NCBI GenBank assembly: GCA_028822445.1
Contig: JAPKDQ010000003.1
Coordinates: 124,001-188,000 of the forward strand
Direction of reading: 5' to 3'
Length of the DNA stretch: 64,000 nucleotides
From: Rhodospirillaceae bacterium
Lineage (GTDB): Bacteria; Pseudomonadota; Alphaproteobacteria; Rhodospirillales; Rhodospirillaceae
Both the position numbers and the translations under genes were made by a program. Shown here piece by piece: positions 38,976 through 42,357 of the stretch. How positions within the stretch are numbered: the first letter of the stretch is position 1; each line of letters starts with the position of its first letter. Under the pieces are notes generated by a model that did no database searches, was not told the origin of the DNA, and saw only the letters and a list, made by a program, of their open reading frames with translations.

Positions 38976-39332
38976 GTGAATAAATTAGTGCGGATATCCG
39001 ATTACCGATACAAAGCGTCTGCCCTTCAATTTAATCGGTCTGAACTCAGTCAACTTCTTAGGCACTATTCATCCCGCGTCATAAGCGGGGAATGGAGAGA
39101 CTATGCCATAGGCTCCACTCCTGGGTTTGCTCAGTTTTGCATTTATCGCAACAGCCAGGAGGAGCCCCTGTTTACTATTACTAAACTGGCGACAGAGGGC
39201 AAAGCACGCAGTGCTAAGGCCCGCAAAGGACGGTATGTGGTCAGCAGCCACCACCACACGCTGAAGCAAAGTCACTCCCTGCTCGATGCCCTTCAAATCT
39301 TGGACAAACCGATCAAGCTCATTTCTTCCTAG
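38976..39332 (+). CDS. DUF2794 domain-containing protein
   Basis: Short protein of a family confined largely to alphaproteobacteria; its function is unknown. The core matches DUF2794: FNRSELSQLLRHYSSRVISG, EWRDYAIGSTPGFAQFCIYR, then ALQILDKPIKLISS at the end. The start is a GTG with a poor Shine-Dalgarno (AAGGGA far upstream). Length 118 is normal. It stands alone on the plus strand and marks the last clearly core gene before the accessory stretch. Confidence 0.8.
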   Translation: MNKLVRISDYRYKASALQFNRSELSQLLRHYSSRVISGEWRDYAIGSTPGFAQFCIYRNSQEEPLFTITKLATEGKARSAKARKGRYVVSSHHHTLKQSHSLLDALQILDKPIKLISS

Positions 39333-39442
39333 AGCTGCAAGATAAATTGATAACCTGTTGTTTTAAAACATAAATTAAATAACATGTTGCTATGCAGTAG
39401 AAGCATTGCAGTCATGCAGCAATACCCATTTATTTCATGCCC

Positions 39443-39459
39443 ACGTAATATTATTACGT
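39443..39459. promoter_or_regulatory. Perfect 17-bp palindrome, operator-like
   Basis: ACGTAATA-T-TATTACGT is an exact inverted repeat of two 8-bp arms. TATATA, a possible -10 element, follows at 39461-39466. Its symmetry and position before a leader and a short ORF suggest a binding site for a dimeric regulator; which one is not evident. Confidence 0.55.
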
Positions 39460-39464
39460 CTATA

Positions 39465-39507
39465 TATCGCGTATGAGACAGGCACACGTCGTGCCGAAAT
39501 CGCGATA
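39465..39507 (+). promoter_or_regulatory. Two-tier hairpin directly before a Shine-Dalgarno
   Basis: Outer arms TATCGCG (39465-39471) and CGCGATA (39501-39507) pair over 7 bp. An inner stem GGCAC/GTGCC (39481-39485 and 39491-39495) has a five-base loop. The last A of the outer stem is the first base of AAAGGAG, so folding could affect ribosome access. It matches no riboswitch class I know. Confidence 0.5.
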
Positions 39508-39520
39508 AAGGAGAAATGTA

Positions 39521-39619
39521 ATGGATATATTATCGAAGTACCTGCACATCACAGTCCTCGTTTCGACTGCGTTGTCTACTGGGGTTATCTTCGCGTCCAG
39601 CGCCCGCGCATTATTCTAA
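39521..39619 (+). CDS. Possible 32-residue membrane or secreted peptide
   Basis: This ORF is too short for the track. AAAGGAGA lies six bases before the ATG, one of the better Shine-Dalgarno sequences in the window. The product MDILSKYLHITVLVSTALST plus GVIFASSARALF looks like a signal peptide with an AxA-type site (SSARA) and almost nothing after it. It could be a true small membrane protein, a leader peptide, or the front of a secreted protein truncated by mutation. No family is recognised. Confidence 0.4.
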   Translation: MDILSKYLHITVLVSTALSTGVIFASSARALF

Positions 39620-39876: not shown

Positions 39877-41064
39877 TTAGGCGGGTTTAATGGCCCCAAA
39901 TAAACTCCACGAGGTGTAATTTCCGTGCTGTGGCGGCGGCACTTCGCCCAAGGCCACTTGTTGGAAATACTCGGGCGTAGCCCCACCCACATCTGGGATC
40001 AAAGCAGTCCAACAATCCTCAGCGTCGAAGCCGCCACTGGTCATCAGGTCTTCGCAATCCTGCGAGCGGAAGTCACGGTAATGGGGCTCGTTATTATGCT
40101 CGTTATCCCAATCGAGATAGAAATTGTAATAGGCGTCGACCTGAGATGCGGGTGGCAATTCCATATGGACCATCATGCCGCCCGGCCTAAGCAAACGGCG
40201 ACACTCAGCCAGCGTCTTTTTGGTCGCCTTTACGGATAACTCATGGAAGAAGAAACTGGACACAATGAGATCAAATGAATTGTCGGGGAAATCAAGGGTC
40301 TCCGCATTCTGTTGTGAGAAGTGCGCGTTAACACCCCGCGATGCCGCGCGAGCATGGGCGTAGCGAAGACAGGGCGCAGCCACATCAACGCCATACAACT
40401 CAGCGTCAGGAAAAATATCGTAATAGGGAAACAGGTTGTTTCCAATCGTGCACCCGGTCTCAAGGATCTTCTCTGGTTTAAAGTCCGGGAAACGGATCGA
40501 TAGCCATTTGCTGACCGACGCTGCGACACCACTGCGCGTTTTGCTTGGTAATAGAGACCCGCGGAAAACCAAACCACCGTGGGCATAAATCGCCCCTTGC
40601 GCCACATCACGGTCAGCATGCTCACCCTGCCAACACCCAGGCATCAAGTGGACGTCCAATGTGTCGACGTAGTCCGGCATTTTAAGTTCGGGGTCGAGTG
40701 TCAGCGTGCCGCCATGAGAACTAGATTGCGCCGCCTGGTCCGCTATTGAAATCATATCCGGCAACTGGCGTTCAACTTCTTCACGCACAGAGTCCCAAAC
40801 CATCTCCTGCGCGTTGTAGCGCAGACTGCTCCAAACCCGGTACGTCAGATTATCTTCTATTGCATCGCGCACTTCTTCACCGGAATTCGGCTCCCGACCG
40901 TACTCGGACAGAAACGCAGGCTTAACCTTCACGTCATAGGCGTCGCGCATATCGTCAGCGACATCTTTCATGATGTGCTTACGTAAGCGGGAGACAAATC
41001 CCTGACGAGCCAGTTCGTCATGTGTCGGGTCCACAAGGCTGTCGATATCGCGGATAGCGTTCAT
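39877..41064 (-). CDS. Class I SAM-dependent methyltransferase, copy 1
   Basis: Two-part protein. The N-terminal 170 residues are helical and of unknown family (PTHDELARQGFVSRLRKHIM, then RVWSSLRYNAQEMVWDSV). The Rossmann-type methyltransferase domain begins at ILETGCTIGNNLFPYYDIFP, with acidic motif II in ELYGVDVAAPCLRYA and motif IV in FDLIVSSFFFHELS, then LLRPGGMMVHMELPP. The C-terminus has many aromatic residues. Cytoplasmic by prediction; substrate unknown. The next gene upstream on the same strand is a clear paralog, 78 bp away, so the two are probably cotranscribed. The first glycine of motif I reads E-T-G-C rather than D-x-G-x. Confidence 0.85.
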   Translation of the reverse strand: MNAIRDIDSLVDPTHDELARQGFVSRLRKHIMKDVADDMRDAYDVKVKPAFLSEYGREPNSGEEVRDAIEDNLTYRVWSSLRYNAQEMVWDSVREEVERQLPDMISIADQAAQSSSHGGTLTLDPELKMPDYVDTLDVHLMPGCWQGEHADRDVAQGAIYAHGGLVFRGSLLPSKTRSGVAASVSKWLSIRFPDFKPEKILETGCTIGNNLFPYYDIFPDAELYGVDVAAPCLRYAHARAASRGVNAHFSQQNAETLDFPDNSFDLIVSSFFFHELSVKATKKTLAECRRLLRPGGMMVHMELPPASQVDAYYNFYLDWDNEHNNEPHYRDFRSQDCEDLMTSGGFDAEDCWTALIPDVGGATPEYFQQVALGEVPPPQHGNYTSWSLFGAIKPA

Positions 41065-41142: not shown

Positions 41143-42357
41143 TTACTTTCCAGCACCGAACAAGTAGTAGCTTGAGAAATTGCTGTGCTGCGGGGCTTCC
41201 GACTCGCCATGGGCAAAGGCGGCAAACTCATCGTCGGTCAGGCCGCCACGGTCTGGGATACGAACCAGACCACATGTCTCCGACGCAAATCCGGCTTCTT
41301 CAAGCAACCCAACCGGGTCTTGCTTGCGGAAGGCCGCATAATGGGGCTCATGATTGTGGTACGCGTCCCAGTCGAGAAAGAAGTTGTAGTAAGGGCCCAT
41401 CGCCTTGGTAGGTGGCAGTTCCATATGAATCGTCACGCCGCCCGGCGCCAACACACGATGGACTTCGGCGAGAATTTTCTTCGTCGACGGAACAGCTATC
41501 TCATGGAAAAAGAAACTTGAGACGACGAGATCAAATGAGCAGTCTTCAAAATCCATGGACTCGGCATTCTGTTGTGAGAAATGCGCCGTGATGCCACGGG
41601 ACTCCGCACGGGCATGGCCATATCGCAACACAGGCGCGCCGACATCGATACCAAAAAGCTCTGCGTCAGGAAAGGCCGACTGGAATGGCGATAAGTTCGA
41701 TCCAATGGTGCAACCAAGATCGAGAATGCGCTTGGGCTTAAAATTCGGATATTTGATACGCAAGTAATGGGCTATTGAATCCGCAACACCGCCTTTGCCT
41801 GGGTTTTTCGTTTTTCTGAGGCCACCAGAAAACACCTGGGTACCGCGCGCATAAATTGCACCGACTGCGATATCGTTTTTCACGAATTCCGTGTGAAAAC
41901 AGCCCGGCATCAAATGGATATCAAGTGAGCTCACGGCCTTCGGAATAGCCAGATCTGGGTTAAGGCGCAACGTGCCACCAGCGGGAGAAACTTTCGCAGC
42001 CTGCTCGGCCACCTCAATCATCTTGGGCAATTCGCGTTCAACCTCGTCGAGCACTGAGCCCCAGACCATTTCCTGGGCATTAAAACGCATGGAAGACCAG
42101 AAACGATAAAAACTGTTCGGCTCCATTGCTTTACGAACCGCAATCGCATCACCAGGTGCGTCACCTGTCTTTGCTTTCACCGACGGCTCTACGGTCCCGT
42201 CATAAACCGCGCGCATCTCTTGGGCCATATCCGTCATGATGACTTTTCGCATCTGCGCCACATACCCTTGGCGCGCTGCCTCGTCGTGGGTGGGTTGAGC
42301 AAATCCATCAATGGCAGGTAGACAGGCTTCTCCAGATGCTTTTTCTTCGCGGTACAT
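41143..42357 (-). CDS. Class I SAM-dependent methyltransferase, copy 2
   Basis: Paralog of the neighbouring gene, alignable along its whole length at about half identity by eye. It shares the N-terminal helical domain (PTHDEAARQGYVAQMRKVIM, then RFWSSMRFNAQEMVWGSV). Motif I is the more canonical ILDLGCTIGSNL. FGIDVGAPVLRYGHARAESRG and FDLVVSSFFFHEI are shared with copy 1, as is HFSQQNAE. It ends 64 codons earlier in phase than copy 1 would with its post-stop extension. First gene of the pair; a weak AGAGTTCT precedes the ATG. Substrate unknown. Confidence 0.85.
   Translation of the reverse strand: MYREEKASGEACLPAIDGFAQPTHDEAARQGYVAQMRKVIMTDMAQEMRAVYDGTVEPSVKAKTGDAPGDAIAVRKAMEPNSFYRFWSSMRFNAQEMVWGSVLDEVERELPKMIEVAEQAAKVSPAGGTLRLNPDLAIPKAVSSLDIHLMPGCFHTEFVKNDIAVGAIYARGTQVFSGGLRKTKNPGKGGVADSIAHYLRIKYPNFKPKRILDLGCTIGSNLSPFQSAFPDAELFGIDVGAPVLRYGHARAESRGITAHFSQQNAESMDFEDCSFDLVVSSFFFHEIAVPSTKKILAEVHRVLAPGGVTIHMELPPTKAMGPYYNFFLDWDAYHNHEPHYAAFRKQDPVGLLEEAGFASETCGLVRIPDRGGLTDDEFAAFAHGESEAPQHSNFSSYYLFGAGK

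Follow-up and report, generated by a model that had tools for sequence, protein, structure and literature searches.

The gap between 39.33 and 39.65 kb of the window (the whole 64,000-nucleotide stretch analysed, part of contig G000:C25 in a Rhodospirillaceae-like source genome of 2.85 Mb) is, as judged from comparative sequence analysis, a one-gene unit encoding an unannotated microprotein behind a promoter of recognisable class. This unit is probably activated by a regulator of the LsrB/VtlR type and transcribed into a hairpin-led mRNA, whose product would be a membrane microprotein that binds a partner. A preliminary description of this DNA had reported a palindrome, a leader hairpin and a 32-codon ORF in an otherwise empty gap. 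All of these elements are present, but the gap is not empty, since it holds a gene next to the gene of a DUF2794 protein:

38976 to 39332, plus strand: DUF2794 gene, the constant upstream neighbour (Pfam PF10984, E 2.9e-18; family-wide synteny)
39521 to 39619, plus strand: gene of a 32-residue microprotein with a single predicted transmembrane (TM) segment (coding selection, synteny and a leave-one-genus-out profile)

The ORF at 39521-39619 encodes the peptide MDILSKYLHITVLVSTALSTGVIFASSARALF. Comparison of eight genomes yielded dN/dS values mostly between 0.1 and 0.4, and the variable columns of the eight sequences were distributed over codon positions 1, 2 and 3 as 15, 6 and 20. The synonymous-site bias that had been proposed as a check was evident in four independent pairs, with 25 synonymous versus 18 nonsynonymous changes, a synonymous excess above chance (p = 1.3e-5). 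These substitution patterns mark the ORF as a genuine gene that is subject to purifying selection. In DNA and protein searches it was detected directly 3' of DUF2794 in every genome of the window's genus (seven in all) and in a single genome from a different genus. The window peptide has no family in Pfam, NCBIfam or PHROGs, and neither it nor five relatives gave a Pfam match, including to DUF1127 (PF06568). Its sequence predicts insertion into the membrane. KdpF, AcrZ and CydX are small regulator peptides of about 30 residues that cross the membrane once and tolerate sequence drift. The window peptide resembles them in length, in its single span and in its tolerance of drift; unlike them, it shows no detectable homology and no known membrane-complex partner gene adjoins it.

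The DNA following DUF2794 was then read throughout the family. In seven genera (g1, g2, g4, g6, g8, g17 and g19), 31 of the 36 complete DUF2794 loci carry a single-TM ORF of 25-41 aa (mostly 31-35 aa) with a ribosome site, two example peptides from other loci being MSSYFRLMDRFFAGALMVTGVWYVSAIAQMI and MQKRYAELLENTATLLVSGFMVAAVLGSIYSLS. One of these 31 loci is interrupted by a contig end, and 28 of the 30 uncut loci satisfied strict criteria, compared with 0.55 in shuffled DNA; as this set was selected for having the ORF, 28 of 36 is the fair count. When the window's genus was withheld from training, the resulting profile still placed all seven peptides of that genus above 1066 decoy ORFs (7.4-18.5 versus 6.2 bits). 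Most g19 peptides were not placed above the decoys by the leave-one-genus-out profile, so their relatedness rests on position and promoter. Across the seven genera the slot peptides thus appear to have diverged almost beyond recognition, and an order-wide profile search returned only weak matches outside two genera. Its sole short-frame match (L035) was discarded, since nothing comparable was seen on reading the locus. In genera without the microprotein (g7, g3 and g20; loci L036, L038 and L053), DUF2794 is followed by a longer hydrophobic ORF with apparently two TM spans.

The gene downstream of the microprotein is convergent in the window, and the strand and length of this neighbour vary across genera. 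The microprotein gene is therefore a single-gene unit rather than a leader peptide, as had alternatively been suggested; the constant same-strand downstream gene expected of a leader peptide or attenuator was not found. Further along the minus strand of the window (39877-41064 and 41143-42357) lies a tandem pair of paralogous SAM-dependent methyltransferases, both extended at length at the N terminus, and genome G009 has a homologue at the corresponding locus.

The most conserved regulatory DNA of the unit is located upstream of the interval delimited in the preliminary description, which had missed this main control element:

39389 to 39419, plus strand: putative activator array GCTATGC-N7-GCATTGC-AGTCATGCAG (LysR-type T-N11-A plus VtlR/LsrB-like box), conserved with the microprotein loci
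39403 to 39415, plus strand: candidate VtlR/LsrB box GCATTGCAGTCAT, one mismatch to GCAT-N3-TG-N3-T (published consensus; PMC7486931, PMC8844928)

The array follows the general pattern GCnATGC-N7-GCATnGC-nnATGC, in which an invariant ATGC is succeeded by a near-invariant CA completing T-N11-A, by an invariant C and, 22 bases past the first ATGC, by GCcATGCr; in most other genera it continues with TGCATTGCAgcAt and then TAtnnT. It was found in all 31 DUF2794 loci with the microprotein and in none of the 19 without. Array scores were 17-33 in the former and at most 4.4 in the latter; the matrix was trained on 24 of the 31 loci, and the other seven scored 17.0-29.7. Moreover, a sequence-only model (R1) gave one strong match per genome, always at the microprotein locus, and the LysR signature T-N11-A (ATGC-N7-GCAT) was recognised in 28 of the 31 loci. 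This co-occurrence ties the array to the ORF, and its form is suggestive of an activator site. The same array speaks against the peptide being the hydrophobic toxin of a type I toxin-antitoxin pair, an extremely improbable reading to which a length of about 30 residues, one TM span and a structured 5' leader would lend themselves; in addition, the gene is single-copy in each genome at a fixed, vertically kept position, and a simple scan found no antisense sigma-70-like promoter.

The VtlR/LsrB box is exact in five congeners (GCATTGCTGTTAT and similar) and occurs with at most one mismatch, at a fixed place, in 15 of the 31 loci (chance 0.13% each); 11 loci have at least three mismatches to the published box although the whole array aligns, and that consensus derives from few promoters. 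In the window the box would span about -58 to -46 of the predicted transcript start, and the box of the Sinorhizobium meliloti PabcR1 promoter lies at -61 to -49 (PMC8844928). The Brucella box is CAATGCAGCCATGCA (PMC12595884). The abcR1 promoter, which drives an LsrB-activated sRNA, likewise combines T-N11-A with GCAT-N3-TG-N3-T upstream of the -35 at a nearly equal distance (PMC8844928), but its product is an anti-Shine-Dalgarno sRNA, whereas that of the microprotein locus is a conserved peptide.

It was the weaker R1 matches that pointed to VtlR/LsrB. Twenty of these were obtained, nearly all outside the microprotein genera and none beside DUF2794. Outside those genera, weaker matches lie before genes for DUF1127-like small proteins, before an OsmC-like gene (names taken from the translations) and before a presumptive sRNA that ends in a terminator. 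The published targets of VtlR/LsrB are the abcR sRNAs and DUF1127 proteins, with the box GCAT-N3-TG-N3-T (PMC7486931). A Pfam search of the window's genome revealed four LysR-type regulators (LTTRs), one of which (L154, at about 499 kb of contig G000:C8) directly follows the thioredoxin-reductase gene trxB on the same strand, an arrangement that lsrB also shows in Rhizobiales (PMC11975290). L154 matched the structure of Agrobacterium tumefaciens LsrB (9HH1) with a phmmer E value of 1.2e-89 and a nearly identical recognition helix. These matches identify L154, the neighbour of trxB, as an LsrB orthologue. The equivalents of C144 and C273 of Agrobacterium LsrB are valine in this protein, so a thiol switch of the Agrobacterium type is not expected here. 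With a box upstream of the promoter and an orthologue beside trxB both at hand, we infer that LsrB regulates the microprotein promoter.

Control mainly by another regulator, either PhaR or a different LysR protein, is unlikely. The genome does encode three further LTTRs as well as PhaR, a PHB-sensing repressor whose site is YGCR-N-YGCR (PMC12542648), and the -35 element TGCATTGCA of many genera matches that pattern exactly. However, the window's genus keeps the upstream array but has TTTATTT in place of TGCATTGCA; PhaR is equally present in family members devoid of the microprotein gene, and the T-N11-A spacing is a LysR feature, as is the agreement with the VtlR/LsrB box. PhaR was consequently rejected as sole regulator, given the missing element in the window's genus and its occurrence in the gene-less members.

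Between the array and the ORF, the exact palindrome ACGTAATATTATTACGT, with 8-nt arms about one unpaired T, is present as initially described, and the putative core promoter coincides with it:

39443 to 39459, no strand assigned: palindrome ACGTAATA-T-TATTACGT, 17 bp, overlying the predicted -10; exact core GTAATATTATTAC once in the genome
39449 to 39454, plus strand: predicted -10 box TATTAT, aligned in position with TAtnnT in other genera

The -10 had formerly been sought just after the palindrome, but the CTATAT located there (39460-39465) is not conserved. TATTAT inside the palindrome is the conserved candidate; with it, transcription is inferred to start at about 39461 and the whole hairpin stays in the transcript. 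The palindrome itself is kept only in the window's genus and one sister and is absent from other genera with the gene. As a regulon operator it was dismissed, in view of the single exact core in the genome (one-mismatch sites are scattered) and the lack of conservation in other genera, and its interpretation as an operator is not supported as a general feature either. An additional operator for a dimeric repressor, specific to the window's genus and its sister and supplementing rather than replacing LsrB/VtlR activation, is quite doubtful: the form GTAATA-T-TATTAC recurs in five of the eight sequences, including the intact copy of G009 from another genus, and both sides are changed in G001; yet the site overlies the -10, is broken on one side in G005 and G006, has one exact copy in the genome and is dispensed with by other genera that keep the gene. 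The palindrome is probably the -10 region and not an operator.

Downstream of the predicted start, the two-tier hairpin and the adjoining Shine-Dalgarno sequence were both confirmed, the latter starting on the last stem base at position 39507:

39465 to 39507, plus strand: 5'-terminal leader hairpin of the predicted mRNA (folding and covariation)
39507 to 39513, plus strand: Shine-Dalgarno sequence AAAGGAG (AAAGGAGA), outside the stem save for its first base and conserved in the genus

The stems TATCGCG/CGCGATA enclose GGCAC/GTGCC, with an MFE of -16.9 kcal/mol and a z score of -2.3. Over 16 stem pairs in eight genomes, 79.7% of the cells were paired. The proposed check for stem covariation revealed changes on both sides in seven pairs and 12 cells, compared with means of 4.0 and 4.7 in shuffles and ranges of 1-4 and 1-6 in slid controls, and a stem covariation of 0.315, which exceeds the values of the shuffles (0.166) and of the slid controls (0.107 at most). 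The leader hairpin is thus supported by covariation within the alignment. Since the Shine-Dalgarno sequence lies outside the stem, a thermometer or switch is not indicated; the simplest role for the hairpin would be protection of the 5' end of the mRNA. The leaders of other genera often contain some hairpin, mostly without significance. A structured leader on a short transcript, behind a type of promoter from which sRNAs are transcribed elsewhere (AbcR; PMC8844928), could also denote a regulatory RNA in which the ORF is secondary. This is very improbable given the purifying selection on the protein and the retention of a hydrophobic ORF where the DNA is unrecognisable, and an Rfam scan of the window matched only a tRNA. 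Taken together, coding selection, synteny, the covarying leader hairpin and the conserved activator-type array lend support to the original suggestion of a regulated small membrane protein.

In the LsrB/VtlR-dependent mechanism that we favour, a regulator of this type would bind the array at 39389-39419 and bring RNA polymerase to a promoter whose -35 is poor and whose -10 sits within the palindrome. The transcript would start near 39461 and open with the hairpin, which probably shields its 5' end while leaving the adjacent Shine-Dalgarno sequence free, and translation would yield a single-span peptide. Our best guess is that this peptide is a membrane adaptor, most likely binding a larger membrane protein such as a transporter or a sensor kinase. 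The sensor kinase PhoR is a binding partner of DUF1127 proteins in Agrobacterium (PMC12501420), which by analogy makes a sensor kinase a reasonable first partner candidate, and no more. The peptide would occupy the regulon position of the LsrB/VtlR-controlled DUF1127 small proteins, which are missing from this clade.

The VtlR/LsrB-activated DUF1127 proteins (BAB1_0914, BAB2_0512 and BAB2_0574 of Brucella; Atu1667 of Agrobacterium) share with the unit described here a very small protein, a single-gene organisation and a LysR-type box of equal sequence at about the equal place, and the array precedes DUF1127 genes in related genera. They differ in that DUF1127 proteins are arginine-rich and soluble, whereas the window peptide is a hydrophobic single-TM one that matches nothing in Pfam or NCBIfam. 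DUF1127 was absent from all 38 genomes tested in the seven genera with the microprotein, and 17 of 25 genomes sampled from the rest of the family contain it. The array motif precedes DUF1127 genes both in other genera of the family and in other families of the order. In the sample from the rest of the family, only 7 of 29 DUF1127 upstream regions reached 12.6 or more when scored with the matrix of the microprotein array (top score 27.5; window 26.8); of 1002 control windows, three scored at least 12, and one of these three duplicates a known array. The strict box pattern upstream of DUF1127 genes occurred near chance (only 2 of 30), so that the matrix proved the more informative of the two scans. 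Microprotein and DUF1127 genes thus seem to share one promoter logic while occupying complementary clades. The complementarity amounts to a single evolutionary contrast, and in five genomes of g19 (L054, L067, L069, L071 and L076) the array and the microprotein are both missing after DUF2794, as is DUF1127, so the module can be lost altogether and functional replacement is only a hypothesis. We consider it speculative, and rather unlikely, that the membrane microprotein replaced DUF1127 as the LsrB/VtlR output, regulator and box having stayed while an unrelated, rapidly drifting single-TM peptide next to DUF2794 was swapped in.

These results describe an unannotated family of genes for proteins of fewer than 45 residues, whose members can be recognised from their position and promoter but hardly from the encoded sequence. 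Where protein homology fails, the promoter array offers a way to detect such genes. They further suggest that the LsrB/VtlR regulon, studied in Rhizobiales, may reach Rhodospirillaceae-like bacteria with a different small-protein output. Elsewhere in the order, a VtlR/LsrB-like box of the GCATGGCTGCCATGCG type stands before a presumptive sRNA with a C-run and a strong terminator (L115, L116, L117 and L129; also L126 and L128). These C-run-bearing RNAs are candidate AbcR-like sRNAs, and Rfam gave no family in ten loci with related boxes. An OsmC-like ORF with an upstream array motif (L127) was also observed in the DUF1127-encoding genome G017.
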